27,006 nt of DNA from a virus: positions 1-27,006 of IMG/VR virus record IMGVR_UViG_3300037961_001086; one strand, given 5' to 3'. The position numbers and the translations under genes are program-made. The notes beneath the pieces were generated by a model. It had not been told where the DNA came from. It searched no databases and was given only the letters and a program-made list of their open reading frames with translations. This document shows positions 2,855 through 24,850 of the stretch, in pieces; position 1 is the stretch's first letter, and the number at the start of each line of letters is the position of its first letter.

Positions 2855-5380
2855 ATGGGTAATGTAATAAAAATAAAAAGAGGGTCGGGTGTACCCTCTT
2901 CATCTAATGATGTATTAGAACATTATGAGTTAGGATATAGAACTGGTACAACAGAGCTATATATTAATGATGGTGGTACATATCGTCAAATAGGTGGTAG
3001 TGGTGGACTATCTTCTGTTAACAACTCTAATTGGTCTGGTACTGATTTGGCAGTTGCAAATGGAGGTACTGGAGCAAGTAATGCAAGTGATGCAAGAAGC
3101 AATTTAGGATTAGGTTCTTTATCAACATTATCTACAATAAATAATTCTAATTGGAGTGGAACTGACTTAGCAGTAGCTAATGGAGGTACTGGAGCGTCTA
3201 GTGCTAGTGATGCTAGAAGTAATTTAGGATTAGGAACTGGTGCTACTTTAAATACTGCTGCAGTAACTGATGGTGCTACTACATTAGCAACAGGTAATGC
3301 AATATATGACCATGTAACTACTAGAATTAGTGGTAAAGCAGACGCTTCAAGTTTAGGTGATTTAGCATTAGTAGATGATATTCCTGCTAGTAAAGTAGTA
3401 TCTGGTACATTAGCAACTGCTAGAATACCTAACTTAGCAGCAAGTAAGATTACAAGTGGTACTATTTCTACAGCAAGATTAGGTATTCCTTCATCTGGAG
3501 ATTGGTTTTCTGGTGGAGCTTCTATTGTTGCAACTGACGGAGTTATGGAAATTGGTAGATATATAGATTTTCACAATTCAGATACAACAACAGACGATTA
3601 TCATATTAGGTTAGATTGTGAAAGTACAAGTGTTTTAAATGTAGTGGGTGGTACATTAGAAGTAGGTGGCTCTCGAGTATTGACAGTAGGAGATGAGGGT
3701 AGTGGAAATGGATTAGACGCTGATACATTAGATACAATAGAAGCAAGTGAATTTTTAAGAAGTAATGCTAATGACAACTTTAGTGGTACATTGAATTACA
3801 CACCAAATACTGGTACAATACTTTCTGTAGACGGACAAGCTATTTTACAGCGTATGACAGAAAATGGAGCTATTACTATTGGACACGATGACGCAGTTAT
3901 AATTGCTGGTGGAGATACAAGTGGTGTAATGAATACCAATATAAACAATGCGACAGAAACAGTATTTGTTGGAGCAGAGGGTGGATTGGTAGTTTATGCG
4001 TTTCCAAGTAATAATACATCTTGGAGCAATAGAAAAGAATTATCTTACAATGGTACAGCTTTAGATGTAGAAGGAAATATAACTGTATCTGGAACAGTAG
4101 ATGGTAGAGATGTTGCTTCTGACGGAAGTAAGTTAGACGGAATAGCAAGTGGAGCTACTGCTAATAGTGGTACAGTAACAAGTGTAGCTACTGGCGGTGG
4201 TTTAACTGGTGGAACAATTACTGGTTCAGGAACAATATCACACGCAGATACTTCTTCTCAATCATCTTCTAATAATAGTGGAAGAACTTACATACAAGAT
4301 ATTACATTAGATACTTATGGCCATGTTACTGGAATTGCAACTGCAACAGAAACTGTAACTAACACAGATACAAATACAAATCAGTTAACAACATTTACAT
4401 TAACAGCAGATAGTGGTAGCAATCAAACAATAGCACATGGAAATACTTTAGACATTGCAGGTGGTACAGGAATTTCAACTTCGGTTGGTTCTACAGATAC
4501 AGTTACTATAACTTTAGGTAATCATAGTGGAGATTTAATTACTTCTGGTACAGTAGCTGCAGCAAGAATTGCTAATTTACCTGCTAGTAAAATTACAAGT
4601 GGAACTATACCTTCTGCAAGATTAGACTCAGACACTGCACATTTATCTGGTACACAAACATTTAGTGGAGCTAAAACATTTAGTAGTCTTGCAAGTTTTA
4701 CAATGGACGGTAATACTATTTCAGGTATTGATGATTCAGGAGAGTTTACTAACAACGATTCTCACATTATGACTTCTGCAGCGGTAGAAGATAAAATTTT
4801 AAGTTATGGATATACTACTGCTTCAGCTTTAGGATTGGGAGATCTGGCGTTAGTAGATGACATTCCTGCAAGTAAAATAGTTAGTGGTACTATTGCAGAT
4901 GCTAGAATAGCTGCATCAAGTATTACACAACATACAGACTCAAAGTATTTAAGAAGCAATGCTACAGACACTGCAAGTGGAGTTATAACTTTTAGTAATA
5001 CAACAAACTCTACATCTAAAACTACTGGAGCAGTAAAGATAAGTGGTGGTCTAGGTGTTGCTAAAACTCTTAATGCTGGAGAAGATGTTGTTGCTTATGC
5101 TTCATCAGATAAAAGATTAAAAGATAATTTAAAACCTATTGAAAATTCTTTAGACAAACTTTCTAAACTATCTGGTTATGAATTTGATTGGAACCATAAG
5201 CAAGAAACTTTTAAAGGACATGATGTAGGTGTTGTAGCACAAGAAGTAGAAGAAGTATTACCAGAAATAGTAACTACAAGAGATAATGGATATAAAGCAG
5301 TTAAGTATGAAAAACTTGTTCCATTATTAATTGAGTCTATCAAAGAATTAAAAGCAGAGATAGAGGAGTTAAAAAAATAA
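2855..5380 (+). CDS. tail fibre with C-terminal S74 self-cleaving chaperone
   Basis: The 841-residue protein starts with an IKIKRGSG...YELGYRTGTTELYI attachment-type segment. Its middle is Gly/Ser/Thr-rich, with a duplicated GGTGAS-x-ASDARSNLGLG module and several PASKI-x-SGTI-x-x-AR modules expected to form a trimeric beta structure. Residues about 749-841 are an intramolecular chaperone (peptidase S74, as in endosialidases): SSDKRLKDN, then GHDVGVVAQEVEEVLPEI, then YEKLVPLLIESIKEL and a coiled-coil end. The Ser-Lys dyad spaced by five residues fits S751 and K756. In the family this domain trimerises, folds the fibre and then cuts itself off near the Ser. The likely role is host recognition. 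It ends in a TAATG junction. Confidence 0.92.
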   Translation: MGNVIKIKRGSGVPSSSNDVLEHYELGYRTGTTELYINDGGTYRQIGGSGGLSSVNNSNWSGTDLAVANGGTGASNASDARSNLGLGSLSTLSTINNSNWSGTDLAVANGGTGASSASDARSNLGLGTGATLNTAAVTDGATTLATGNAIYDHVTTRISGKADASSLGDLALVDDIPASKVVSGTLATARIPNLAASKITSGTISTARLGIPSSGDWFSGGASIVATDGVMEIGRYIDFHNSDTTTDDYHIRLDCESTSVLNVVGGTLEVGGSRVLTVGDEGSGNGLDADTLDTIEASEFLRSNANDNFSGTLNYTPNTGTILSVDGQAILQRMTENGAITIGHDDAVIIAGGDTSGVMNTNINNATETVFVGAEGGLVVYAFPSNNTSWSNRKELSYNGTALDVEGNITVSGTVDGRDVASDGSKLDGIASGATANSGTVTSVATGGGLTGGTITGSGTISHADTSSQSSSNNSGRTYIQDITLDTYGHVTGIATATETVTNTDTNTNQLTTFTLTADSGSNQTIAHGNTLDIAGGTGISTSVGSTDTVTITLGNHSGDLITSGTVAAARIANLPASKITSGTIPSARLDSDTAHLSGTQTFSGAKTFSSLASFTMDGNTISGIDDSGEFTNNDSHIMTSAAVEDKILSYGYTTASALGLGDLALVDDIPASKIVSGTIADARIAASSITQHTDSKYLRSNATDTASGVITFSNTTNSTSKTTGAVKISGGLGVAKTLNAGEDVVAYASSDKRLKDNLKPIENSLDKLSKLSGYEFDWNHKQETFKGHDVGVVAQEVEEVLPEIVTTRDNGYKAVKYEKLVPLLIESIKELKAEIEELKK
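3020..3235 (+). repeat. direct duplication of a 32-residue fibre module
   Basis: Residues 56-87 (bases 3020-3115) and 96-127 (3140-3235) of the 841-residue fibre are almost identical: NNSNWSGTDLAVANGGTGAS, then one variable residue, then ASDARSNLGLG. The period is 40 residues (120 bases). The DNA copies differ mostly at silent positions, which points to an old duplication held by selection on the protein. Confidence 0.85.
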
Positions 5381-6489
5381 TGGCTCTTACTTCATCAGGA
5401 CAAATTAGTATGAACGATATTAATGTTGAGTTTGGTAGAAGTGGAACTACTGCTAACAGTTCATTAGAAGATTTATCTGATGGAACTGTAGCTACTATTA
5501 ACACACAAAATGCTAGTGCAGACAGACCAGATGGTAGTGCACCTCATGCTATGAGTGAGTTCTATAGTTATGACCATGACTTAGCTGGTACATCTTGGAG
5601 TACTACAGACAATACTGGATTAAATCTAACTGATTTACCAGGAGGTACTGGTACAAGTACCAAAGATGCACAGATGACAGTATCTAATGGTAGTGGTGGT
5701 ACAAGTTTATCTTTATCAACAACTGGTGGACCATTTGGTACATTTACAATGGCTACATCTTCTAGTGGAGACCCTGGTTTTATGGGTACAAGTAATAGTG
5801 GTACAAATTTTATAAGTGTGTCATCATCTAATAGTAATAGTTTATACACTGGACATAATTCAGGAACAAGATATATTAGAACTAGATGGGCTCACTCACC
5901 TGCTAATAAAGATGGTACAGGTTCATACACATTAACACTTACAAATAATAGTGTTAGTGCAACTGTTACAGGTAATATTACATTTGCTGGTGGTGGTGGC
6001 GGATTTGGTTTTTGTATTTATGAAAACATACCAGTTAATTTGAAAGAAGGAACTGCAAACATACATGATTTAGATGTTGGAGATATGATAATGTCTTACA
6101 ACTGGGAAACTGGAGAAGAAGAAGAAGTAGAAATATTACAAATAGAAAAAAGATTACATGATAACTTATATAAGATTATGCTATCAGACCCGAACGATGA
6201 AACAGATGGTGAAGAATTAAAAGAGTTGATACTTACACAAGACCACCCTGTATATAAAGAAGATGGTAGTATGGTATCTGATGATCCAAGTAGAACATCA
6301 GCAAACTATGATTTAGATGCAGCTGCTATACAGCCTAATGATTTGTTAAAAATATTAGATGGTAAATATTATGCACAAGTTCATAGATTAGAAGGATTTC
6401 CAAAGAAACATTGGACATATACAATTTTAACAAAGAATAATAACTTTTATGCAAATGGCGTACTAGTACACTCAGAGATAGGTGAATAA
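5380..6489 (+). CDS. tail/adhesin protein with C-terminal Hint (hedgehog/intein) domain
   Basis: The 369-residue protein starts with SSGQISMNDINVEFG, a small N-terminal pattern found in many marine phage virion proteins. A Gly/Ser/Thr-rich beta region follows (about 65-203), then a GGGGGFGF linker. The C-terminal Hint domain begins at C212 (FCIYENIPV). It has a block-A-like DLDVGDMIMSYN, a block-B TQDH (T286, H289) in LILTQDHPVY, and a terminal FYANGVLVHS. In splicing inteins the last two positions are His-Asn. Here they are H364-S365, followed by only EIGE, so splicing is unlikely. Known Hint domains of this type cleave or activate the bond before the Cys, so processing of a fibre or transfer to another molecule is possible. 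Start shares an A with the preceding TAA. Confidence 0.85.
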   Translation: MALTSSGQISMNDINVEFGRSGTTANSSLEDLSDGTVATINTQNASADRPDGSAPHAMSEFYSYDHDLAGTSWSTTDNTGLNLTDLPGGTGTSTKDAQMTVSNGSGGTSLSLSTTGGPFGTFTMATSSSGDPGFMGTSNSGTNFISVSSSNSNSLYTGHNSGTRYIRTRWAHSPANKDGTGSYTLTLTNNSVSATVTGNITFAGGGGGFGFCIYENIPVNLKEGTANIHDLDVGDMIMSYNWETGEEEEVEILQIEKRLHDNLYKIMLSDPNDETDGEELKELILTQDHPVYKEDGSMVSDDPSRTSANYDLDAAAIQPNDLLKILDGKYYAQVHRLEGFPKKHWTYTILTKNNNFYANGVLVHSEIGE

Positions 6490-7030: not shown

Positions 7031-7411
7031 ATGAAAAAGTTTATATTATCATTATGCTTATGGCTTGGACTATCGTCTACATGGCTACACTCGCAGTCAG
7101 TTAACTTAGATAATTTTCAAGCAATACAATTAATGAGCCTAGAAGAGTGTGCTGTAGTACAGGTAAATGCTTCTTGGAACTTTGCTAATAGATTAGACAT
7201 TGCTAAGTTGAAAGATTGTTATATAGCAGAAGTAGACTTAACTAATAAAGCTATTGGTGCAGTAATACAAAAAGAATGGAGTATAAAGGTAGTACCAACT
7301 ATTATTATATTTCAGAATGGTAAAGAAGTAAAACGATTTGAAGCAGGTATATCAATGAAGTTTGATGAACAATCTGTTTTAGAAAACATTAGGAAAGAAA
7401 TTAAAAAATAA
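7031..7411 (+). CDS. secreted thioredoxin-fold protein lacking the CXXC site
   Basis: The 126-residue protein begins with a signal peptide (MKKFILSLCLWLGLSSTW, probable cleavage near HSQ-S). A thioredoxin fold follows: VVQVNASWNFANRLD, then YIAEVDLTN, then SIKVVPTIIIFQNGKEVKRF. The cis-Pro (P89) and the NGKEV hairpin are kept. Where thioredoxins have WCGPC, this protein has W49-N-F-A-N53, so both active Cys are replaced by Asn. It cannot be a normal disulphide exchanger; a binding or structural role in the periplasm, or in the particle, is more likely. Cys remain at 9, 40 and 63. It lies among small membrane genes of the lysis region. GAGGAT precedes the start. Confidence 0.8.
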   Translation: MKKFILSLCLWLGLSSTWLHSQSVNLDNFQAIQLMSLEECAVVQVNASWNFANRLDIAKLKDCYIAEVDLTNKAIGAVIQKEWSIKVVPTIIIFQNGKEVKRFEAGISMKFDEQSVLENIRKEIKK

Positions 7412-12347: not shown

Positions 12348-12862
12348 TGGCAACAGAAGCAAGCAATATTTTGACAATGGTAAGAACTTTTGCAGAGAGA
12401 CAAAAAGAAGAAGAGCTAGATAGACAACTTGCAGATGGACCGCTAGGATATAGTGGTGGATTAGCAGGTTTTATAGATGATATGACAGCAGGTGTATTAA
12501 CTAGAACTGCATTTAAAGAAGGTGAAGAAGCTGTTAAGGATGCTTTTGACACTAGAACTATGAAAGAAAAAATTCAAGATGAAGTAGAAGCATTTAGAGA
12601 AGTGATAGATAGTGGAGACTTTACTGCTATAGATATATTTGATTATGGTATAGCACAATTAAAAGCAAAAGGTGCAGATACAAGTGGAATAGAAAGTTTG
12701 TATCAGCAATATTTACAAGGAACAACATTAACTACAGTTGATGGGAATGGAAATAAAATACAATACCAAGACGTTGGACCTGTTTCTAATTCTACTAGTT
12801 CAGCACCAGGAGATCAAGTAGGTAAGTTTAATCCGTTCTTTAATCCTTATGGTAGGAAATAA
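12347..12862 (+). CDS. virion-region protein of unknown function (171 aa)
   Basis: An acidic, largely helical 171-residue protein coupled at both ends by TAATG. It has an AERQKEEELDRQLADGPLGY segment, a short Gly/Ala segment (YSGGLAGFIDDMTAGVLT) and a tail with KFNPFFNPYGRK. The family is not recognised. Its place between a tail gene and the lysozyme, upstream of the ejection-type proteins, suggests an internal or tail protein. Antisense open frames here are shadows. Confidence 0.72.
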   Translation: MATEASNILTMVRTFAERQKEEELDRQLADGPLGYSGGLAGFIDDMTAGVLTRTAFKEGEEAVKDAFDTRTMKEKIQDEVEAFREVIDSGDFTAIDIFDYGIAQLKAKGADTSGIESLYQQYLQGTTLTTVDGNGNKIQYQDVGPVSNSTSSAPGDQVGKFNPFFNPYGRK

Positions 12863-13359
12863 TGTTTTTAAATATTAAAAATAAATCATTCAAACAAAAG
12901 CTTTATGAACATATAAAGTTAAGAGAAGGTTATAAAGATGTAGTATATTTAGATACTCTTGGTAAACCTACTGGTGGTATAGGTCATTTACTTAGTGCAG
13001 ATGAAAAGAAAAAATATCCTGTAGATTCTATATTAAAAGAAAGTTTAATTAAAGATTGGTATGAAAAAGATATAGAGAAATCTTTAGAAGCTTGTAATGA
13101 GCAATGTAAAATATTAAATATTTATGATAAAGATTTTAAGATTGCATTAACGTCTGTTAACTTTCAACTTGGTACTAAATGGTTTAGAAAGTTTCCTAAG
13201 ACATGGCATGCACTATGTCATAAAGATTATGATTTGGCTATAGCAGAGATAACATATAAAAAACCTGGTGAGCCAGAATACTCTGATTGGTATAAACAAA
13301 CACCAGTAAGAGTAAAAGATTTTGTAGAAGCAATAGAAAATATTAAGGAGAGTGTATAA
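12862..13359 (+). CDS. T4-type lysozyme (glycoside hydrolase 24), endolysin or virion lysozyme
   Basis: The 165-residue protein has the T4 lysozyme catalytic set with exact spacing: E22 in KLREGYKD, D31 in VVYLDTLGKP and T37 in PTGGIGHL (T4: E11, D20, T26). The C-terminal half keeps NFQLGTKWFRKFPKTW and WYKQTPVRVKDFVEAI, matching the end of T4 lysozyme. It cuts the glycan of peptidoglycan. No signal peptide is visible, so release would need the holin. However, its position among virion genes rather than next to the holin leaves open a role in the particle during entry. Coupled by TAATG on both sides. Confidence 0.93.
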   Translation: MFLNIKNKSFKQKLYEHIKLREGYKDVVYLDTLGKPTGGIGHLLSADEKKKYPVDSILKESLIKDWYEKDIEKSLEACNEQCKILNIYDKDFKIALTSVNFQLGTKWFRKFPKTWHALCHKDYDLAIAEITYKKPGEPEYSDWYKQTPVRVKDFVEAIENIKESV

Positions 13360-13697
13360 TGGCACAAGATAAAAAGAAATCACCTGTGCAAATAGCAGGA
13401 GAAAATGAAGCTATGGCTGCAGATAATGTAACCGTAGATCCAAATTATGTTGCTGAAGTAGAAGCACAACAAGCAGAAATGGATAGTACTTTACAAGCTG
13501 AAAGAATTATAGCATTAGAAGAAGCTGAAAATAATACAGACCCTATACCTAATCTTGACTTTCAAAAAGATGTAGAAGCACAAAGACAAGCAACTAAAAA
13601 TGCAGCACAAGCAGAGATAGCAAAGTCATTTGATTTATTCGATATAGCAGAAGATTTAGGTTTAAAGTTTCAACCATTTAAAAACGGGGAGGAGTAA
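13359..13697 (+). CDS. acidic Ala/Glu-rich protein (112 aa)
   Basis: A 112-residue acidic protein with no hydrophobic segment. Long helical stretches rich in Ala, Glu and Gln (VAEVEAQQAEMDSTLQAERI and EAQRQATKNAAQAEIAKSF) end with a DLGLKFQPFKNGEE tail. It may be an internal virion protein or an assembly helper. Its acidic nature contrasts with the basic genes earlier. No family recognised; TAATG junctions at both ends support it. Confidence 0.72.
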   Translation: MAQDKKKSPVQIAGENEAMAADNVTVDPNYVAEVEAQQAEMDSTLQAERIIALEEAENNTDPIPNLDFQKDVEAQRQATKNAAQAEIAKSFDLFDIAEDLGLKFQPFKNGEE

Positions 13698-14275
13698 TGC
13701 CTATATTTGGAGGAGCAATAATTGGTGGTATAAAAGCATTAGCTGCTGGATTTAAAGGAGCAACTGCTTTATCTAAAGCTAGCATGTTATTATCTGGTGG
13801 TCAAATGGCATATGGTGCTTTTGTTAATAAGTCAGAAAGAGAACGAGCAGCTTCTGATAGAGCGGCAACAAGAAAGATGGCTATACAAGGACAGTTAGAT
13901 TTACGTGGTGCAGCTAAAAGTGCAGATGAACGTTCTCTAATAAGACAAGGTTTTATTAATGAAAACGTTGGAATACAAAGTGAAAGTTTTGCTAGAGAAT
14001 CTAGAGGTAGTATGAGGTCATTGGAGTCAAACATTGGAATGGGTGGACTATATGGTTCTGGTTCAGCTGATCAACTAAGACAAGATATGGCAGCTGAAAT
14101 AGCTTCAAGAGGTGCAGGTATGTCTTTAGCAGCATCGCAAGATAGATTCGGTGAAGCACAAAGAAGAGAAGCTGAGTTAAGAGATATACAAAATAGTATG
14201 TTAGAGTTATCTGTATATACAGGTAGAAACTATAATATATTAGATACATATGGTATTAGAAATAATTTAAGTTAA
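13697..14275 (+). CDS. internal virion protein candidate (T7 gp14-like size and layout)
   Basis: The 192-residue protein begins with a Gly/Ala-rich hydrophobic region (FGGAIIGGIKALAAGFKGAT and MLLSGGQMAYGAF). A long charged helix follows (SERERAASDRAATRKMAIQG), then a Gly/Ser-rich segment (IGMGGLYGSGSADQ) and another helix. T7 gp14, an ejected internal protein that forms a pore in the outer membrane, is 196 residues and has a similar N-terminal hydrophobic and helical plan. The next two genes include a giant protein in the place where T7 has gp15 and gp16. I infer an ejection role; sequence identity is not claimed. Confidence 0.68.
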   Translation: MPIFGGAIIGGIKALAAGFKGATALSKASMLLSGGQMAYGAFVNKSERERAASDRAATRKMAIQGQLDLRGAAKSADERSLIRQGFINENVGIQSESFARESRGSMRSLESNIGMGGLYGSGSADQLRQDMAAEIASRGAGMSLAASQDRFGEAQRREAELRDIQNSMLELSVYTGRNYNILDTYGIRNNLS

Positions 14276-14287
14276 AAGGAGTAAGAG

Positions 14288-14890
14288 ATGTCTTATAGTT
14301 CAAGAGTAATTAAATCATTATCAGATCTTGTACAGTCCCTACAACAGTACAATGCTAGTAAAGATGATGCAAAAGATATTGCAAAGGCTTTAATATTAGC
14401 ACAAGAACAAGCTAAGTTGCAAACAGATCAAATGTTGTTACAGAACGCAATAACTACAAATCAAGAATTAGTACAGAGTTCTTTGACAGACATATCTGCA
14501 ATATCAATGAGCGACCAGGGAGAGTTTTCATCAGCTGATTATGATAAGATGGTTGAGAGTACACCATTTTTTGCATTGAGACCTAACAGAAGAATACGTA
14601 AAAGTGCTACTTCTTATATGGATGCGTTCGATGCAGCAGATGCAACTAATCTTAATTACTATTCAAATTTAGAAGCTAAAGCTGCATTGATGGGTAGTGA
14701 TAATGTAGTAGTAGAAAAAACAAAAAGTTTAATTGATGGACAAATAAATCAATTAGAAAATTTATCAGCAACATTAAAAGATACAAAAAACAATGTAGGT
14801 TTTGTACAAGATGATAGATATGATAATTTAATATCAAGAGTAGATACTAAGTTACAACAAAAAATAGAATACAGAAAACGTTTAGACTAG
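14288..14890 (+). CDS. helical virion-region protein (200 aa), possible ejection partner
   Basis: A 200-residue protein with helical, Gln/Asp/Lys-rich segments (KALILAQEQAKLQTDQMLLQ, then LIDGQINQLENLSATLKDTK). There is no clear membrane segment. It lies 12 bases after the gp14-like gene and 7 bases before the giant gene, with GGAGTAAGAG before its ATG. Position suggests a partner of the giant protein inside the head or tail, in the place of a small second internal virion protein. No family recognised. Confidence 0.72.
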   Translation: MSYSSRVIKSLSDLVQSLQQYNASKDDAKDIAKALILAQEQAKLQTDQMLLQNAITTNQELVQSSLTDISAISMSDQGEFSSADYDKMVESTPFFALRPNRRIRKSATSYMDAFDAADATNLNYYSNLEAKAALMGSDNVVVEKTKSLIDGQINQLENLSATLKDTKNNVGFVQDDRYDNLISRVDTKLQQKIEYRKRLD

Positions 14891-14897
14891 GAGTAAA

Positions 14898-17800
14898 ATG
14901 GAATTTAGAAATCCTAATTTAAAACAAGCTATAGCTGGGTTTCAATCTGGTGCATTAGATCAAAGACGTTTTATAGTACAGTTAGATACAATCTATAGAG
15001 CCAACCCTAAATCTTTTACAGAAGAAGAAGTTGATTATATAGAAAAACAATTTAAGAAAACTGATATAAAATTTAACAGAGATTTAGAAGCAGCTGATGC
15101 TAATCTATTAAGCACAGCAAATCAATTTATATCTGGTATGGTAGAAGGTTTTACTACATTAGGTTGGTCAGAAGAGCCTGATACTACAGCAGAATCTATT
15201 GCTAATAAGTTAGGACACTTGATAGGGTTTGCACCTGATGTAGTAGCAAGTGTACTATCTATGGGACAATATGTACCTATTGCTACTGCTAAAGCTATTA
15301 GTAGAAAAAGTGCTGGTGCAGTAAGTAAAGGTCTACAAAAAGCGGGGGAGAAAGCACCTGCTATCTTAAGAAAAGAGTTAGCACCAGATACATTTGCATT
15401 ACAATCAATACCTATGAAAGTTGCTGATGTTGTTATGGACAATGTAAAAGCAAGTTTAGGTAGTGCTAATGTTACAACTACTGGTTATCTATCTAGAGGT
15501 ATATTTGCTAACACTAGATTTAGAGATATAGGAGAACAAGCATTACACTTAGGTGTTGCTATGGGTGTATCTTCTTGGAAAGAAGGACCTAAAGGAGCAG
15601 CAGAAGCAGGAGTATATGGTGCAGCAGCAGGTACATTGTTTGGTACTATAGGTAATTATGTCAATGTTGCACGTTTGATAGCAAATCCTAAGACTACACC
15701 AGTTGGACAAAAGATTGTTAGAGGTGTAGCTAAACGATTAGTAGAGGATGAAGAAAAATATAGAGCAATGAACATGCTTATAAGAGGTTCTCTTGGTGCT
15801 GGAGTACAAGGTGGTATGGCAACAGCACAGCAACTACCTGTAGCAGAACAGGTATATGAATATTTATTAGGTGCTTTCTTTGGTGCTAGTGCTAGAGATA
15901 GAGGGTTTATAGAAAGAACAAGATATATAAATAAAAACTTTGCTAAGTTTGGAGATATTACAACACCAGTAAAAACAGTAGAACAAAAACTTAGAAAAGA
16001 TCCAGACTTTCAAAAACTAAATAAGTTTGACCAAGACTATGTTATAAAACATATTGCAGTAACACAGCAACAAATATTTAATAATATAAATAGAGGTGTA
16101 TTAAATCCTGAAATAGCACAAGAAGTTCGTAGGATAGCAAAAGAATTAGGTATAGAGTTAGAGGTAGCTACACCAAAACAAATAGAAAAGATTACAGAAA
16201 AACTATCTGATAGTCAGATTATAAAGAAAGATTTAGAAGGTATAAAGTATGAGATTAGAGATGATAATGTAATACCAGAAGTGTTAAAAGGTGCAACTCA
16301 AGATTACATAAATGACTTATCATTAAAAGTAGATGATATGATAAGACTAGAACAAAATAAAGATTTGAATGAACCTCTTGTAAACAATTCTGAAATAAGA
16401 GATATAGCTTTAGAGATTAGAAAAATACAAGGTAAAGATGTTACTGATATAGGTAGAGGTAAGGACGAGATACTTGTTAATTTATCTAAGCTAGCAACAG
16501 ATTCTAAGTTTAATTTACCTGAATTTAAAAGATTGATTACAGAAAAATATCTAAAGAAAGTAGAAAACAAAGCAGAGTTTTTTAGAAAAGTAGATGATTT
16601 AAAATTAGGTAGATATTTAAAAACAAAAAAGAATGTTTTCAATAGAGCAGAGTTGACAGTAGATGTAGTAGATGCTGACCCTAACACTGGTGAAATAACA
16701 AAGGTAAATGTTTTTCCTTCACCACATACAGATTTAAAAGGTAATCCTGTTAATACTGGTAGTGGACAAAACAAATATAATGCAGCTATAAAAGCAGGAG
16801 ATGGAGTACCAGTAAGAATTATATTACGTAAATCATACATTATGTCTCAATTACATAAGTATGGTAAAGGTGATAATGCTATAGATGTATTTAGCAAAGA
16901 TGTAGAAAGTCCTTTAGGTTTCCATAAATTAAAAAAAGGTAATCCAGATTTTTTACCTAAAGAAGCCATAGTAAAAATTAGAAAAGCATTGCAAGAACAG
17001 GAAACTCCGTTGTATTTATTTGGTGGTGCTAAAGATAGTGGAGTATTGGTTGTACATAGAGTACCATTTACAGATGCACAATTTAGTTCTGCTAGACAAA
17101 GACAAGTGTTACGTGAGTTAGGTTTAAGTTCTAAGATTGTAAATGCAGAAGGCTATCAAGTAAAAGAAACGGTATCTAATATTTATTATTTATTAAGAGA
17201 GTCTGGATATATGGATGTTAATGATCCGATAACTGTTAGTAATTTAGTAAAAGGTTTGAAGAAGTTTAGAAAGCAACCTTTGTATGAGACTGTACAAGCA
17301 TTTAATAAATATAATAATTTAGCACAAGGTTCTGATATAAGATTAGAAAATGAATACGGATTTATAAAAGACATAGGAGATGAATCTACTTTTAAATTTA
17401 TACAGATAAAAGATTTAGAATCTAAGTTTGAAGTAGGTGGTGTACCTTCTAAGTCAGCTATAGATGCTGTAGTATATGTTAGGCAAGATGTATTTGACGC
17501 TATAAGAAAGAAAAATTATTTATCAAGTCGTAATGGTTTTTTGAAAATGGTAGGATTTAGTGCACCTAGAGATGGAAATGGTACTATATTATTAAAGACA
17601 GGTACATTTAAAGCTACTGAAAAAATGGATGCATTTATGCAGGCTAACAACATACACTTTATGACAGCTGAATCTGCAACAAAAACTAGCCTTGGTTTGA
17701 AAACTCATGACATAGTTTATAAGAATAATAGATGGGATTTTGGTACAGCAGATAAACAGATAAGACCTTATGAGATGCGTGCAGATGAATTGTATTTAAA

Positions 17801-20800
17801 CTTTGGTGTATATGAAAATTACTCTAAGTTAAATATGAGTATGCCTATATCTAAACAAATATTTGATAAAATAAATTATGAACAATTAGGTGAAGATGGT
17901 CCAGCATTTCGTGCTGCTTACGAAAAATTTGTTAATGAATCATTAGCTGGTGATCCTGCAACTAATAAAGCATTTGAAAGAGCATTAGTAAAACAAGATG
18001 GTAATTACGAAATACCAAATTTATTTCGTGTAGATATAGAATTAATTAATAGAGCATTAACAGTAGAACATATAGATACTCCTTTTGGTAGAAATGTATT
18101 AAAGAAAATTATGGAAAGAGGTAATGAAGATTATCATTCTTTAATTTATGAACAAGGAGATGTTATAGATAAAAAATTATTTGGTGTAGAGAATATAGAT
18201 ATACCTGACTTATTAGCACAAAATGATTATAGAATGTCTGCTATTACACATCCAGGAGTACGTGAGTTTGTAAATAAAAGTTTAACAAGTTATTTACATA
18301 TGCGTGCTATCAGACCTACAGCTAGCAATGCAGTAGATATTAAGTTAGGACCAGCAGATTTAGAAGTTGCAGCAGGCTTACAAGACAATCAAGTAAAGTT
18401 TGGTCAAGGTATGAAAAACTTTTTGATTAAAATTAAAGGACAATCTAAACAAGTAAGACTTGAAGATGCTTGGAATACATTTAAGGATATGAAAAAGTCT
18501 GATAATAGATATAATGATTATAAAGAAGCGTTAACTTTTATGGCTATGAGAAATCCTAATAGTGGTAATGGTGGAGTTCGTATATTAGAGATGGCTGGTT
18601 TTGTAGCTAGAGAAGGTACTGCTGCTGTTACTACATCTAAGACTGACTATTACTTAGGTGGTGCAGATAAAGATGCTGATAGTATTGCTTTATATCAAAA
18701 CATGCCTGGTATATTTAAAAAAGTATTTAGTAAATATGAAAGTGAATTGCAACGTGGTAGAGATACATACTCTTTTGAAAATGTAGATCCTCAAAGTACT
18801 TTTGCTACAGAGAAACTAATAGAAGAGTATCCAAATATTAAAGTATCAGAAGGCAGTAGAAAAGCATTAGAAGATTTATTAACAACAGATTCAAGAATAG
18901 ATGTAGCAAGACAAGCAAAGATAGGTAAAGTAAATATAGATTTTATTGTAAGTGGTTTTAATAGAATGCAAGTTGTTGCAGATTTAATACAACAAGAAGG
19001 TGGTGTAATAAATTCTAGACAAGCAATATTAAAAAAGGAAGGGGATAGTCTTGTACCTACTGGCTTGTTTGATAATATAAGTATTAAATTAAAGAAAGGT
19101 GTTGATATAAAGCAATTACAACTTGATACTTATCTTGGTATTAACTATATGGCTGACTCTGCAAACTTTGTAAAGATGGAAAAATATCCTGTAATTTTAG
19201 AAACGTTTTGGAAAAAATATTTTGAAGTAACTAATTTAAATGGTAATAGAAATATTACAGAGTTCCAACAAAACTTTCGTAATGTAGAAAAATTAAATGC
19301 ATTACAAACACTTCATAATGTAGTTTATAAAGGTAAAAATTTATCTAATAGATCTGTTGCAGACAAAGCTGCTTCAGATTATTTAGATGCTTTTGGTAAA
19401 CAGAATCATTTTTATGGTCAGTTAGCTACTGTGATTAATAATTATAGTAGTTTTGGTATTAATCCATTTAAATATTTATTTAGTAAAAACTTTAAAAACT
19501 ATAATAACTATGAAGTTGCAAGAGAATATACATTAAGACTTAGAGAAGAAATAGTAAAGAACGAAGCATTGATAAAACGTTTTGGTATATTAGATAATTA
19601 TACTAGCATTGTTGAAGCTAAAGCTGCTTTAGATAGACTGATTAAGAGTGAAAACTACTCTGCTTTTTATAATAAAATGATTGAATACCAATCTATGCAT
19701 AGGGCTATGGAAATGTCTAATGGTTTGATAAGAACATATGCTGGTAATGAAAGAAGTAAATACAGTAATGATACATTAGAATTAGAAATAAAGAGTCTTA
19801 TTGATAATACATGGACTATTAAATCAATGTTTAACAGAGATTTAAATTTAGTTCCTGAAGGGTTTGCTAAAGAAAACTTATCTATGGCAGACATAAATCA
19901 ATACATATATGTAACTAAAGCAAAGATAAAGGCTAAGTATAAAGACGAACCTTCGTTAGCTAAAGACTTAATAAATGTTTATGAAGCTTGGTTATTGGCG
20001 ACTCCTAAATTAGATAGACCATTAAATGAATTACAACAATCTGCATTAGATACTATTTTTAAAGAAAATAAATTTATAGAACGTGGAACTATAAGTGGTA
20101 ATACAACAAGTAAAGGTTTTGATAATGCATTAGTAAATAAACAAAGAGCATTTTTAGCTTATGCTGGTACACCTAATTATATGTTACAAAGTTTAGCTAT
20201 TAGTGCTAAAGGTAGAAGAGATTATTTTGATTATTTAGAAACACAATTAGTAGATAGATCAGAACGTATATCTAAAAGATTGAATGAACAAAAAAATAAT
20301 CCAGAAGAACACACATTAGAATCATTAGCAAAAGAAGCAGCAGAACAAGATGTGTCTGTAAAAGATAATATGAAAAGAATATTAGATACAGAAGCTTTGG
20401 TAGGTACAGTGTTAGAAAAGTTTGACTTTGTAAAAACTAATACTGGTAATAGAAATAAAGCAATAACTCGTGATGCAGATAAACAACTTAAAAGATTACA
20501 AAGTTTATTAAGAGAAAGTCCTGATGCTATTATGAGATTAGAAGAACAGTTTATAGAACTTACATATAGACTAGAAGGATTAGGTAGAAGATTAGATACT
20601 GCCAATGTAAAAGATTTAAAGTTATTTGTTGATGCATTAGAAGTTTATTGGAGTGCTAAGAAACCTGGTGATAAAGTGAAAAAGTTTTTTAGAGCACCTG
20701 GTGGTAGAGATAATATATTAAATTATACATACACTCAAAGAGATTTAAGACTAATGGAAAAAATGGAAAGAGAAACAAATCCTAGATTAGTTTTAGATAA

Positions 20801-23800
20801 GTTTGGTAAGATAGTACCAATGAGAATTAAAGTTCCAACAAGTACATTAGAGTTAGGTAGATTAACTATTGATAGATTTGATACGTTTCAAAAGACTATC
20901 AATGCAGCACAACAAGATAAGATAAATGGATTATTTGAATATTTAAACAATGACAATCCAAACTTAATACAATATAGAGATTTATTATTTGAAGCAGCTG
21001 TTAATAAAATAGAATGGAATGATGGTAAGTTTCCAAGTAATACCTATAATAAATTACAACAAGAAGCTATTAGAAAGGCATGGTCAGAAAGTTCTGAAGC
21101 TTTATCTAAATTAGAAAAAGAAGGTATAATGTTTGACATGTCTAGTCCAGGTGGTAAAGCTGTAAGAAAAGATGTTACTGCTAATGAGTATGTTGATCGT
21201 ATTGTAAAAGATGTAAAAGAATTTTTATCTGATATACAAAAAGTATATATTGATTCACGTGTTGATATGTTAGAAAAAACATTACCAAGAAGATCTAAAA
21301 AGTTTATTGGTTCTAATACTAAAGACAAGAACACAAAGAGATTAGAAGATTTGTTTTTAACTGAAACAGGGTTGATAGATTTGAATACTGTTAACTTATT
21401 GTTTAAAGATTTATCTAATAGAAATGTAAGTGAACGTGAGTATATTGGTAAGTTTTTAATTAGTATAAATGATTATAGATTTATTAAACATCACTTAGAA
21501 GTATTTGATAGAATACAATTTAAACTTGGTGATAAAATAGATTTGAATAAACCATTGAATAGTAAAAATAAAAATATTGTAAAAGGATTAGTCTTGCAAG
21601 AACTAAACTCTACTAAAAATAAACCTGACTATTATGAAAGGTATGCTGTCGGTAAAGTAGAAGAAGGATACTTTCCTAGAAATGGACATGGTAGAAATGA
21701 AGCTGAAAGAAAAGAGTTAGAAGCTTGGAATGAGAATAGAGCATTAGAACAATTAAAAGAAGCTGCTGAAGATCCAACTCAATTACCTGAAAAAATTAGA
21801 GTTGAAATGGAGTTAGGTAATATTGACATGCAACAAGCATTGTCTTTATATAGAGAACAATTACTAGGTAATGCAGCTAGAAATACAAACCAATCTTTAA
21901 CATCAGGACAAGCAGAAGCAGAAAGACAAATAATAGATTTGTTAAGTAGGCCTAACATAGATGGATTTATTGGTGATTATGCAGCAGGTAGTACATTAAA
22001 AAGAGGACAAGACTTTATGCCTTTTTATAGAAAAGATTTAGATGCATTGCGTAATTACACTGGTGGATTATTTAAAATGTGGTTTACAAACTTAGCTGGA
22101 TTAAGAAGTGAAGTATTATTGAAACAATTTGATTATGCAAATAAAGGTGAAACGTATGCAAGAGATTGGTCTAACTATATGAGAAATGCTTTTACAAATA
22201 TGATGGGACTTAGTACCTATAGAGCATATAATATACATGGTATTGAAAAGAAAGACCAACAAATGTTTAGAGACTTTATTGCAAGTGGATTTAAAAGAGG
22301 TAAATATTCTGGACATATGAAAGATAAAATTATTGATTTTGAAATTGCTATTGAACCATCACCTGTAGAAAAAAGAATTATATTAAGAAGACAAGATAAA
22401 AGTTTATCTACTAAAGAAAGACAAAAGGCTGCTAATAAAGAAATACTAGCATTGAAAACAAAACGTGCTAAAGAATTAGTTGAACAAGTAAATACTACAG
22501 GTAAGTATGGTACATTGTATCACTACACAAGTGATGAAGCAGCAGTAAGTTTCTTTAAAAAAATTGATAAATTATTTGGTGGTAGAATGTTTAAGGATCT
22601 AAACAAGATGAGTGAACGTGATAAGAACTTTGAAATCATTAGACGTATTAGAGACTTTAGTGATTTAGAAGGTAAGTTTGAGCTATTGACATTACTATCA
22701 CACCCTAAAACAGCTATAACTAATTTATATGGTGGTACTCAAAACACTATATCTGATACAGGTTGGAAACCATTTAGGCAAGCTAATGATACAGAGTGGA
22801 TGATTAAAAATTTATTTGATAATGGTAAAGCAGAATTTAGTTTTTTAAACCAACAAACTGGTAGGGTAGAAAGAAAAAGAATTAATACCAAAGAAAGAAT
22901 ATATGAATGGATGGAGTCTTTAGGTGTATTTGATCAGATGTTTTTAGACCTTGTTGCATTAGATAAAAACTTTGGTAGACAAGGACAAAGAAAGTTTTTT
23001 GAAGAGTTTATTAGACGTATGAATAAATCATACAGAGAAGGTATTATAACTACTGAAACAATACATAATAGAGAAGCTAAAAAAACATTAAGAGAAGTTG
23101 CAAGAGATTTAAAAATAGAAGTACCTGTTACTGAGTTAGGTGCTTTACCAATGAAATGGTCTGAAAGAATATTGCGTGGTAATGCTTTCTTAGCAAATTA
23201 TATAAACTTACATCAGAATGTTATAGGTCCTAATATTGCAAAAGGAATACCGTTTGATAGTAGAGTATTGACTAACTTTGCTATGAAAGGTATTGAAGCA
23301 TCTCAGTTTATGTATCAAGCAACCTTTAGACCTAACTTTGCCAACACATCATTAGGTCGTGTATTGACTAGATTCCAACCTTATGCATGGAATAGTATTG
23401 GTAGACGTATTAAATTATTTAAAGATGCACAACAATCTGGATGGAACAGAGAAGTATTAGCAAGTAAAAAGTTTCAAAGACAATTTACATTTGATCTAAT
23501 GGCTCTTGCTATGGCTAATATATTTGTAGCAAGTATATTTGAATATGCATTATCACCACCTATGAATTGGTTACAAGATAGTGCAGCATTATTATTTGGT
23601 GATGAGAAAGAAAGAGAACGTGCATTCTTTAGTTCATATCCATCACCTGTATTAGCACCTTTACAAATTGTTACACCACCTATTGGTAGATTTGTATTGT
23701 CGCCAATTACATCTATATTGAATGGTGATATGGAAAACTTTACTAAGTATCAGTTAGCTACATACTTTCCATTTGGTAGGTTAGGTAGAGATGCATATAG

Positions 23801-23942
23801 AACATTCAATAGTCCAGCTATGGCTGTAGATTTTATGACTGGATTACCTTTACATCAAGTTCATGAGTTAAGAAGAGATAAGATTGAACTAGATAAATTA
23901 GAACAACAAGCTAAAGAATTAGAAGAAGAGTTAGTAGAATAG
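14898..23942 (+). CDS. giant virion protein with two-barrel RNA polymerase core (probable ejected virion RNA polymerase)
   Basis: At 3014 residues this is one third of the window. Three Gly/Ala-rich hydrophobic regions lie at about 105-135, 215-268 and 293-334. The polymerase-like core lies at about 850-1350: DAVVYV (856-861), an LLKTGTF lysine (K900), an IHFMTAESATK lysine (K929), LYLNFGVYENYSK, R1218-N-P1220 with SG, a YLGGADKDADSIALY metal site (D1257, D1259, D1261), and AKIGKVNIDF (G1343-K1344). Order and spacing match the two double-psi-barrel polymerases of crAss-like phages and QDE-1/YonO relatives. The remaining ~1650 residues are mostly helical, with an LLSHPKTAITNLYGG segment near 2600 and hydrophobic segments near 2867-2886 and 2912-2935, ending in a coiled coil. 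I infer packaging and ejection. A gene start with GGAG lies 7 bases after the previous stop. Confidence 0.8.
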   Translation: MEFRNPNLKQAIAGFQSGALDQRRFIVQLDTIYRANPKSFTEEEVDYIEKQFKKTDIKFNRDLEAADANLLSTANQFISGMVEGFTTLGWSEEPDTTAESIANKLGHLIGFAPDVVASVLSMGQYVPIATAKAISRKSAGAVSKGLQKAGEKAPAILRKELAPDTFALQSIPMKVADVVMDNVKASLGSANVTTTGYLSRGIFANTRFRDIGEQALHLGVAMGVSSWKEGPKGAAEAGVYGAAAGTLFGTIGNYVNVARLIANPKTTPVGQKIVRGVAKRLVEDEEKYRAMNMLIRGSLGAGVQGGMATAQQLPVAEQVYEYLLGAFFGASARDRGFIERTRYINKNFAKFGDITTPVKTVEQKLRKDPDFQKLNKFDQDYVIKHIAVTQQQIFNNINRGVLNPEIAQEVRRIAKELGIELEVATPKQIEKITEKLSDSQIIKKDLEGIKYEIRDDNVIPEVLKGATQDYINDLSLKVDDMIRLEQNKDLNEPLVNNSEIRDIALEIRKIQGKDVTDIGRGKDEILVNLSKLATDSKFNLPEFKRLITEKYLKKVENKAEFFRKVDDLKLGRYLKTKKNVFNRAELTVDVVDADPNTGEITKVNVFPSPHTDLKGNPVNTGSGQNKYNAAIKAGDGVPVRIILRKSYIMSQLHKYGKGDNAIDVFSKDVESPLGFHKLKKGNPDFLPKEAIVKIRKALQEQETPLYLFGGAKDSGVLVVHRVPFTDAQFSSARQRQVLRELGLSSKIVNAEGYQVKETVSNIYYLLRESGYMDVNDPITVSNLVKGLKKFRKQPLYETVQAFNKYNNLAQGSDIRLENEYGFIKDIGDESTFKFIQIKDLESKFEVGGVPSKSAIDAVVYVRQDVFDAIRKKNYLSSRNGFLKMVGFSAPRDGNGTILLKTGTFKATEKMDAFMQANNIHFMTAESATKTSLGLKTHDIVYKNNRWDFGTADKQIRPYEMRADELYLNFGVYENYSKLNMSMPISKQIFDKINYEQLGEDGPAFRAAYEKFVNESLAGDPATNKAFERALVKQDGNYEIPNLFRVDIELINRALTVEHIDTPFGRNVLKKIMERGNEDYHSLIYEQGDVIDKKLFGVENIDIPDLLAQNDYRMSAITHPGVREFVNKSLTSYLHMRAIRPTASNAVDIKLGPADLEVAAGLQDNQVKFGQGMKNFLIKIKGQSKQVRLEDAWNTFKDMKKSDNRYNDYKEALTFMAMRNPNSGNGGVRILEMAGFVAREGTAAVTTSKTDYYLGGADKDADSIALYQNMPGIFKKVFSKYESELQRGRDTYSFENVDPQSTFATEKLIEEYPNIKVSEGSRKALEDLLTTDSRIDVARQAKIGKVNIDFIVSGFNRMQVVADLIQQEGGVINSRQAILKKEGDSLVPTGLFDNISIKLKKGVDIKQLQLDTYLGINYMADSANFVKMEKYPVILETFWKKYFEVTNLNGNRNITEFQQNFRNVEKLNALQTLHNVVYKGKNLSNRSVADKAASDYLDAFGKQNHFYGQLATVINNYSSFGINPFKYLFSKNFKNYNNYEVAREYTLRLREEIVKNEALIKRFGILDNYTSIVEAKAALDRLIKSENYSAFYNKMIEYQSMHRAMEMSNGLIRTYAGNERSKYSNDTLELEIKSLIDNTWTIKSMFNRDLNLVPEGFAKENLSMADINQYIYVTKAKIKAKYKDEPSLAKDLINVYEAWLLATPKLDRPLNELQQSALDTIFKENKFIERGTISGNTTSKGFDNALVNKQRAFLAYAGTPNYMLQSLAISAKGRRDYFDYLETQLVDRSERISKRLNEQKNNPEEHTLESLAKEAAEQDVSVKDNMKRILDTEALVGTVLEKFDFVKTNTGNRNKAITRDADKQLKRLQSLLRESPDAIMRLEEQFIELTYRLEGLGRRLDTANVKDLKLFVDALEVYWSAKKPGDKVKKFFRAPGGRDNILNYTYTQRDLRLMEKMERETNPRLVLDKFGKIVPMRIKVPTSTLELGRLTIDRFDTFQKTINAAQQDKINGLFEYLNNDNPNLIQYRDLLFEAAVNKIEWNDGKFPSNTYNKLQQEAIRKAWSESSEALSKLEKEGIMFDMSSPGGKAVRKDVTANEYVDRIVKDVKEFLSDIQKVYIDSRVDMLEKTLPRRSKKFIGSNTKDKNTKRLEDLFLTETGLIDLNTVNLLFKDLSNRNVSEREYIGKFLISINDYRFIKHHLEVFDRIQFKLGDKIDLNKPLNSKNKNIVKGLVLQELNSTKNKPDYYERYAVGKVEEGYFPRNGHGRNEAERKELEAWNENRALEQLKEAAEDPTQLPEKIRVEMELGNIDMQQALSLYREQLLGNAARNTNQSLTSGQAEAERQIIDLLSRPNIDGFIGDYAAGSTLKRGQDFMPFYRKDLDALRNYTGGLFKMWFTNLAGLRSEVLLKQFDYANKGETYARDWSNYMRNAFTNMMGLSTYRAYNIHGIEKKDQQMFRDFIASGFKRGKYSGHMKDKIIDFEIAIEPSPVEKRIILRRQDKSLSTKERQKAANKEILALKTKRAKELVEQVNTTGKYGTLYHYTSDEAAVSFFKKIDKLFGGRMFKDLNKMSERDKNFEIIRRIRDFSDLEGKFELLTLLSHPKTAITNLYGGTQNTISDTGWKPFRQANDTEWMIKNLFDNGKAEFSFLNQQTGRVERKRINTKERIYEWMESLGVFDQMFLDLVALDKNFGRQGQRKFFEEFIRRMNKSYREGIITTETIHNREAKKTLREVARDLKIEVPVTELGALPMKWSERILRGNAFLANYINLHQNVIGPNIAKGIPFDSRVLTNFAMKGIEASQFMYQATFRPNFANTSLGRVLTRFQPYAWNSIGRRIKLFKDAQQSGWNREVLASKKFQRQFTFDLMALAMANIFVASIFEYALSPPMNWLQDSAALLFGDEKERERAFFSSYPSPVLAPLQIVTPPIGRFVLSPITSILNGDMENFTKYQLATYFPFGRLGRDAYRTFNSPAMAVDFMTGLPLHQVHELRRDKIELDKLEQQAKELEEELVE
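17445..18947 (+). other. two-barrel RNA polymerase core inside the giant gene
   Basis: This region encodes residues about 850-1350. The first barrel holds K900 and K929, 29 apart; the second holds R1218, P1220 and the D-x-D-x-D triad at 18666-18680. In the family the lysines contact the incoming nucleotide and the aspartates hold catalytic magnesium. The R-x-P to aspartate distance here is about 39 residues, close to the 35 or so of bacterial beta-prime. The borders are estimates from motifs, not from a structure. Confidence 0.72.
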
Positions 23943-23955
23943 ACTTCTTTTTTTT
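23923..23955 (+). terminator. likely intrinsic terminator overlapping the end of the giant gene
   Basis: AAGAAG (23923-23928) can pair with CTTCTT (23944-23949) across a 15-base loop, and an eight-T run (23948-23955) follows at once. The stem is short and AT-rich, so it may be weak. It includes the stop codon at 23940-23942 and would end the long virion transcript just before the converging - strand genes. Confidence 0.45.
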
Positions 23956-23999
23956 CGGTGGCTGATATTCCTTTCCCCTTTTCTTCTTTCTTCTAAATC

Positions 24000-24186
24000 T
24001 TTGCCCTACTTTAGTTAATATATCATACATCAGTGCCAACCAAGTGTATTTGCTATAAAAGGGTAATACAGGATTGGATACCTGCCCGACTCCTTTTAAG
24101 CCGTGTTTAATTTTAGTAGGGCAAAACTTACGAACAAGACAGGAAAATGAATAATCTCGTCTAAAGGTTAAACCTGCCTTGCTCGT
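24000..24186 (-). ncRNA. candidate structured RNA in the convergent gap
   Basis: The region between the converging gene blocks holds three inverted repeats. Read on the - strand, bases 24186-24173 pair with 24143-24130 as a 14-bp stem with two G-U wobbles. On the + strand those two positions are A-C mismatches, which favours a - strand RNA. Next, 24125-24115 pairs perfectly over 11 bp with 24010-24000. That stem encloses a 7-bp hairpin (24098-24092 with 24062-24056) with a CAGG/CCTG pair inside. It would be the 3' end of the leftward transcript or a separate small RNA. A DNA-level site or a terminator for the leftward genes is an alternative. Base composition is less AT-rich than the genes around it. 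Confidence 0.4.
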
Positions 24187-24211
24187 TTTCATAGGAGTAT
24201 ATGTTCACATA

Positions 24212-24364
24212 TTACAGTTCGTTTACACGATCTAGTAATTCTTCTAATATAATCATTTCTTGTTTAGAAACAAAAGGTGCTTTTTTATAATTAACTAAAG
24301 CTGCTTTCATTAATAATACTTCTGCTGGATTATAAAATACTAAAGTTATTTGATCTTTACTCAT
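24212..24364 (-). CDS. small acidic-helix protein (50 aa)
   Basis: A 50-residue frame starting at an ATG that overlaps the TGA of the gene before it (ATGA). It reads MSKDQITLVFYNPAEVLLMK, then KKAPFVSKQEMIILEELLDR and VNEL. The length is below usual gene limits, but the coupling, the ordinary AT-rich codon use and the helix-forming end make it credible. No function recognised. It is the last gene of the leftward block before the structured gap. Confidence 0.6.
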   Translation of the reverse strand: MSKDQITLVFYNPAEVLLMKAALVNYKKAPFVSKQEMIILEELLDRVNEL

Positions 24365-24534
24365 TCATAACTCCCACTTTGGTTTACATAGCCATCAGTA
24401 GTATCTTCACTATCTTCTGATTTCCTGATCTGTTTGTTATGTTTTTGTTTCAGTTCATCTTCTAGTGCTGTGATAATCTTCTGTGCTAATTTAATTATTA
24501 CGGTTGCCTCGTCTTTATTCATCTCTATCATCAT
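24361..24534 (-). CDS. small charged protein (57 aa)
   Basis: The chosen ATG at 24534 has AAGGG six bases upstream; other in-frame ATGs lie at 24531 and 24522 (the last would give 53 residues). The protein has a helix (TVIIKLAQKIITALEDELKQ) followed by a charged, probably unstructured end (KSEDSEDTTDGYVNQSGSYE). It overlaps the end of the nuclease gene and the start of the next gene. No family recognised; it could be a partner or regulator of the neighbouring replication proteins. Confidence 0.58.
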   Translation of the reverse strand: MMIEMNKDEATVIIKLAQKIITALEDELKQKHNKQIRKSEDSEDTTDGYVNQSGSYE

Positions 24535-24850
24535 TATTTTCCCTTTCTATCTTTATTAGTCTTAACCATTCTTTCAATGGTATTACAGCTAAAGGTTCTT
24601 TTCTATCCATTCTAGTTACTACTACATCTACGTCTTCACCATGATTATCTGGATATAACCATTCAGCTATTCTTTTTCTTCGTTTTGCTTGCACGCAATA
24701 GTCTTCTACTATTACATCAACGACTTCTGATTTACCTAATGATCTGCCGTCAGAAGCATAGGCCCTCTTTGCAGAGAGCCCCACTTCTTTAGCTGCATTA
24801 ACAACTTCTCTTTCAAGATTGTTGCCACGAACTTTATTTTTATGCGTCAT
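24515..24850 (-). CDS. PDDEXK nuclease, Hjc-like Holliday junction resolvase candidate
   Basis: The 111-residue protein has a short nuclease core: KVRGNNLEREVVNAAKEVGL (Glu at 13/15), a SDGRSLGKSEVVDVIV segment with D45, and YCVQAKRRKR with Q54-x-K56. This E...D...(E/Q)-x-K order fits the PDDEXK fold and small Hjc-type resolvases found in phages, which cut branched DNA during replication or before packaging. The usual acidic residue of E-x-K is Gln here, a change often seen in this fold. The gene overlaps its upstream neighbour by 11 bases and lies in the replication block. Confidence 0.78.
   Translation of the reverse strand: MTHKNKVRGNNLEREVVNAAKEVGLSAKRAYASDGRSLGKSEVVDVIVEDYCVQAKRRKRIAEWLYPDNHGEDVDVVVTRMDRKEPLAVIPLKEWLRLIKIERENNDDRDE

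Follow-up and report, generated by a model that had tools for sequence, protein, structure and literature searches.

A putative N4-style ejection cassette with a predicted two-barrel RNA polymerase in a lineage of uncultivated phages

In phage N4 (Schitoviridae) gp52 and gp51 form an outer-membrane channel and a periplasmic tunnel, and gp50 then follows, as outlined in the relevant part of PMC12633501. The N4 virion RNA polymerase (vRNAP) is a T7-like single-subunit polymerase, and a review cites unpublished data by which injection depends on its N-terminal domain and encapsidation on its C-terminal domain (PMC4496689). A two-barrel, single-chain RNA polymerase is packaged in the virion of the crAss-like phage phi14:2 (PDB code 6vr4); it has 2180 amino acids and two cysteines, its neighbours are other large structural proteins and the genome is 100 kb. 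For the cargo proteins of crassviruses, extrusion in a partly unfolded state has been proposed (PMC10172136). The long-tailed Thermus phage P23-45 has a two-barrel core in gp96, a tape-measure fusion protein of 5,002 residues that is found in the virion and contains no cysteine. The gp14-gp15-gp16 set of T7 is without a polymerase; gp16, the largest of the set, carries a lytic transglycosylase domain.

We have analysed a window of 27,006 bases, a virus record to the full length of which all window coordinates refer. Three adjacent genes in it had been read from sequence as a possible DNA-ejection module recalling that of T7, with a polymerase core in the third, giant protein. An ejection module combined with a polymerase is still the best reading. 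It rests on the conservation of the cassette and its place at the 3′ end of the virion genes, on a predicted RNA polymerase fold, and on the lack of cysteine in all three proteins. N4 gp52-gp51-gp50 is a better analogue than the T7 set, and sequence homology to neither was found.

The three genes and their surroundings

The open reading frames lie where that reading had placed them, at 13697-14275, 14288-14890 and 14898-23942, all on the plus strand. They encode proteins of 192, 200 and 3014 amino acids and are separated by 12 and 7 bases. Scans of IMG/VR revealed relatives of the giant that include clade A, to which the window belongs, and clade B; loci newly found in the last scan carry no tree-based clade assignment. 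The small-medium-giant order is kept in 51 of 52 loci from these uncultivated viruses, with a protein of 200-415 amino acids directly upstream of the giant and one of 155-323 before that. In the single exception the contig begins 390 bases 5′ of its giant gene. This count uses 19 of the 21 loci of one relative set, L060 and L061 being left out as the gene start is missing. The giants of clades A and B are homologous from end to end (24% identity, HHalign E 9e-217, 2932 columns), which together with the recurrent gene order excludes a chance arrangement.

The first protein is rich in glycine and alanine, as had been noted (12.5% and 14.1%, respectively, of 192 residues). Its architecture is gp14-like, with a hydrophobic N-terminus for which the Kyte-Doolittle mean over 19 residues is 1.53, against 1.31 for T7 gp14. 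Relatives of this protein were detected in 13 of the 14 relatives searched, and it is homologous between clades A and B (HHalign E 3e-5). For the second protein HHalign detected no homology between the clades and no profile match to T7 gp15, N4 gp51 or P22 gp20; it has no strong hydrophobic stretch on the Kyte-Doolittle scale and is short for a tunnel. When both small proteins were compared by HHalign with T7 gp13-15, N4 gp51/52, P22 gp7/14/16/20 and the phi14:2 neighbours nothing significant emerged; the best result, with N4 gp52, had a probability of 4% and an E of 0.01 in a set of about 100 comparisons. By analogy, we propose that the 192-residue protein may be an outer-membrane pore or first-out protein and the 200-residue protein a periplasmic tunnel or portal-associated protein.

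Just 5′ of the cassette a 112-residue protein (13359..13697, plus strand), also free of cysteine, is a possible fourth member. Upstream of it lies a phage lysozyme (PF00959; 12862..13359, plus strand); as it has three cysteines, it is more probably an endolysin than a protein that is ejected.

The giant gene is the last of the virion gene block. The genes beyond it are on the opposite strand and include a DnaB-like helicase, recognised in a Pfam and PHROGs scan. Both ends of a relative of 44,807 bases (G001, loci L035-L037), the giant of which is 99% identical to that of the window, align to window positions 23,619-24,706, and they share an overlap of about 160 bases with 87.5% identity. The genome is thus about 44.7 kb and G001 is nearly complete; it carries a DnaB-like helicase and a RusA-like resolvase. 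The head genes of the relatives comprise an SU10-like capsid protein, a P22-like portal, an SU10-like adaptor and a terminase, a combination that points to a podovirus-type, short-tailed particle. The nearest matches of the capsid protein among phage records show at most 28% identity across about half its length.

Other genes of the lineage deserve a brief description. A tail-type protein at window positions 5380-6489 has a C-terminal part that resembles, by eye, a Hint (intein-type) domain, with no Pfam match above threshold. A small protein at 7031-7411, thioredoxin-like with a signal peptide by eye, is conserved in several relatives. The early region of two relatives (L030:14366-17815 and L036:16421-19816) encodes a protein of 627-641 amino acids without a family match, followed by a JAB-domain protein and a ThiF-family protein. 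The trio resembles a ubiquitin-style conjugation system, and the JAB and ThiF families were matched in L030.

Conservation and predicted fold of the giant protein

Searches of 50,697 phage records with the giants of clades A and B turned up no relative of either; for clade B the query consisted of residues 1-2991 of a single giant. A search for a host in 84,980 prokaryote genomes with a C-terminal profile gave 34 pattern matches, none of them confirmed. Sequence searches of solved structures with the whole giant, its core, its N-terminus and both small proteins returned nothing significant, and the same is true of a Pfam and PHROGs scan of the giant.

Conservation of the giant peaks at both ends. 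Identity to the window protein over residues 1-300 is 60-66% in clade A and 28-33% in clade B, over residues 451-2250 it is 25-51% and 12-23%, and over residues 2851-3000 it reaches 78% and 48%. The conserved N-terminal domain, residues 1-345 (14898..15932, plus strand), is a candidate injection or membrane domain. The C-terminal domain, residues about 2401-3000 (22098..23897, plus strand), is the most conserved part and a candidate encapsidation or ejection domain. A model of the latter is uninformative, given a pLDDT of 58.8 and a best Foldseek E of 1.6, which is no match.

Hydrophobic regions near both ends had been noted as possible membrane-crossing parts, and their presence is confirmed only in part. 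Within the C-terminal domain residues 2863-2881 form a clear hydrophobic stretch in clade A (Kyte-Doolittle 1.82 in the window, 1.61-1.92 across 13 proteins with the window included), but the counterpart in all five clade B proteins reaches only 1.19-1.26. The stretch at 2919-2937 scores 1.14. Crossing by residues 100-340 finds little encouragement in the window, where residues 105-123 score 1.35 and the segment 300-345 never exceeds 0.8. With one stretch that is clear in clade A and weak in clade B, membrane insertion of the giant is the least supported step of the model considered below.

The polymerase core that had been seen in the giant is borne out. It occupies residues about 574-1522 (16617..19463, plus strand). 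In an alignment of 18 giants a DxDxD motif (Asp1257, Asp1259, Asp1261) is invariant in the context GADKDxD, which is present in all 34 full-length giants. Two lysines 29 residues apart, Lys900 and Lys929, are likewise invariant in the 18; we take them to be the counterparts of the active-site lysines in other two-barrel enzymes. An AlphaFold2 model of residues 560-1750 (pLDDT 74) has as its best Foldseek matches in the PDB the phi14:2 virion RNA polymerase (E 4e-11) and QDE-1 (E 8e-8), with P74 gp62 a weaker match (E 3e-3). Superposition with VIA-align gives Z 17.7 against QDE-1 (609 residues, 5.2 Å), 13.0 against the phi14:2 enzyme (691 residues aligned), 11.7 against P74 gp62 and 9.6 against P23-45 gp96. 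A fold search of predicted viral proteins gave 21 matches passing E 0.001, the best of which are unnamed, so similar cores sit unannotated in databases. PolD is absent among the fold matches listed, an absence that excludes nothing. With DxDxD in a conserved context and fold similarity over the whole core, the modelled core is of the two-barrel (double-psi beta-barrel) RNA polymerase fold, of the QDE-1/phi14:2 type, and its activity is predicted on that basis. No sequence match between the giant and the phi14:2 polymerase was found in the phage-record search or with HHalign.

How then does the locus compare with N4? The order of a small, a medium and a giant gene in one operon (in 51 of the 52 loci, set against the N4 record), a giant of 3,000-3,500 amino acids and the lack of cysteine in all three proteins are shared. 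The core, in contrast, is two-barrel with DxDxD and not T7-like, HHalign finds no significant profile similarity of the giants or of the small proteins to gp50-52, and the genome is about 44.7 kb compared to 70 kb. The arrangement is N4-like, yet with a core of another fold and no detectable homology the lineage is not a member of the N4 group.

Absence of cysteine

The giant contains no cysteine in any of 66 loci (150,821 residues), among which are 34 full-length proteins that fall into 22 clusters at 90% identity. The two small proteins are likewise free of it in all 51 loci counted (25,893 residues). The loci are related and such counts are not independent. The 66 comprise 28 and 21 loci from earlier IMG/VR scans and 17 new contigs from the last scan, the remaining loci of which repeat contigs already counted; 43 of its 44 loci were examined, all without cysteine. 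Two contigs contribute two giant loci each (L060/L068 and L061/L065). In other open reading frames of at least 150 codons from five relatives there are 342 cysteines in 51,023 residues, and only four of the 44 with at least 400 lack cysteine, one of these being what is left of a giant that a piece border had cut. Since these other frames include that remainder and one small cassette protein the contrast is conservative. In the window alone the deficit is milder, 0 cysteines in 3,406 cassette residues against 13 in 4,371 residues of virion proteins (p 9e-4).

Ejected proteins of cultured phages behave in the same way. N4 gp50, gp51 and gp52, T7 gp15 and gp16, and P22 gp7, gp16 and gp20 have no cysteine and T7 gp14 has one. 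These nine proteins from T7, P22 and N4 thus hold 1 cysteine in 7,864 residues, compared to 30 in 6,280 for 14 other virion proteins (Fisher p 4e-10). Each of three large virion proteins of phi14:2 has one or two cysteines. Statements in PMC2784036, PMC3915230 and PMC3715699 note that an N4-like vRNAP lacks cysteine and link this lack, as a suggestion, to its passage through the tail and into the cell, while the corresponding statement in PMC4837373 gives the fact alone. In the parts of the literature on cysteine in ejection proteins that we searched, the N4-like papers state the absence for the vRNAP only and no general statement was found. The present analysis extends this to a different polymerase fold and to two companion proteins. 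Cysteine composition is the strongest evidence for ejection.

Four loci (L072-L075) form clade C, the giants of which (2,773-2,777 amino acids) are not detectably homologous to those of clades A and B and are excluded from the 66; the small proteins are included in the 51. Each clade C giant has a single cysteine, which is its last residue, and upstream are cysteine-free proteins of 170 and about 380 amino acids in the same size order. A DFDID motif occurs in a clade C giant (seen in L041). Should this giant also be a polymerase, the layout has recurred once more.

Two contigs have a mixed content. One of 89.8 kb (G013, L030-L034) carries two complete, differing gene sets of the lineage, with giants of 3182 and 3444 amino acids, and is probably two genomes joined in assembly. 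In another of 69.5 kb (G004, L041-L044) a clade C tail/ejection module and a clade A module flank one head-gene set of clade A type. The capsid proteins of the clade C records G015 and G017 are only 33-48% identical in matched pieces, which indicates that G004 is a chimeric assembly or a recombinant.

A delivery model and its alternatives

We consider it probable that the three genes constitute an N4-style ejection cassette with a virion two-barrel RNA polymerase. By analogy with N4, the 192-residue protein would leave the particle first and the 200-residue protein second, and the two would make an outer-membrane pore and a periplasmic tunnel. The giant would be packed in the head and would thread the tail largely unfolded, with which the partly unfolded extrusion of Crassvirus cargo is in agreement. 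In the cytoplasm it would refold, with its two-barrel core, and transcribe the first genes; it may also help to pull DNA in. What speaks against the model is that the small proteins resemble none of the known ejection proteins compared, and that no early promoter motif common to four sets of genes from relatives stood clear of shuffles. A sigma-70 scan of window positions 12800-24700 gave fewer sites than in shuffles.

Could the giant instead be a non-virion polymerase, a late transcriptase or replicase made in the infected cell from a gene that simply happens to close the late operon? There is a precedent in P23-45 gp64, a non-virion two-barrel RNA polymerase (PMC10770324), and no DNA polymerase was recognised among the proteins scanned, those of G001 included. 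Enzymes of the gp64 type are, however, of about 600 residues (chains of 591-595), and such a role leaves the length of the giant, its strongly conserved termini and the lack of cysteine in it and its small neighbours unexplained. We regard it as unlikely. A fusion of a tail tape-measure protein and a polymerase, in a long-tailed phage, seems more doubtful still. P23-45 gp96, likewise without cysteine, is just such a fusion but a weaker fold match to the core. The head and connector genes here are of podovirus type, matches to tail-tube, sheath or tail-chaperone proteins were absent among the scanned proteins (the scan covered part of the small open reading frames), and two small cysteine-free genes precede the giant as in N4.

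A T7-type gp14-gp15-gp16 set in which gp16 gained a polymerase is highly improbable. The likeness to T7 stands as regards size order, the gp14-like first protein and the lack of cysteine in gp15 and gp16, and it is often size and synteny, not sequence, by which homologues of ejection proteins are matched (PMC8954989). But HHalign comparisons of the proteins of both clades with single T7 sequences, which limit sensitivity, gave no profile similarity to gp13-16 (E at least 0.07). The sizes differ, with 200 residues in the second protein compared to 747 in gp15 and a giant 2.3 times as long as gp16 (3014 against 1318 amino acids), and the giant has no Pfam or PHROG match to a lytic-transglycosylase family.

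Returning to the N4-style cassette, we put forward, more tentatively, a further proposal. The giant may be a self-delivering two-barrel RNA polymerase that evolved separately, in which an N-terminus for ejection and a C-terminus for encapsidation enclose the core in a single chain free of cysteine, within an N4-like cassette. It would serve both as an inner-membrane part of the ejectosome and as a transcription motor that reels the genome in, and selection for threading through the envelope would keep cysteine out. If the N4-style cassette reading is right, unrelated polymerase folds, T7-like in N4 and two-barrel here, reached the same ejection layout and the same strict exclusion of cysteine, and ejected virion proteins of uncultured phages could be told simply from the absence of cysteine in their sequences. 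The lineage would also present a compact system, a genome of about 45 kb with one gene taking up one fifth, in which to address how an enzyme of 3,000 residues passes a phage tail. Finally, again if right, the cassette reading suggests that a phage lineage without a cultured member can begin transcription without the host polymerase.
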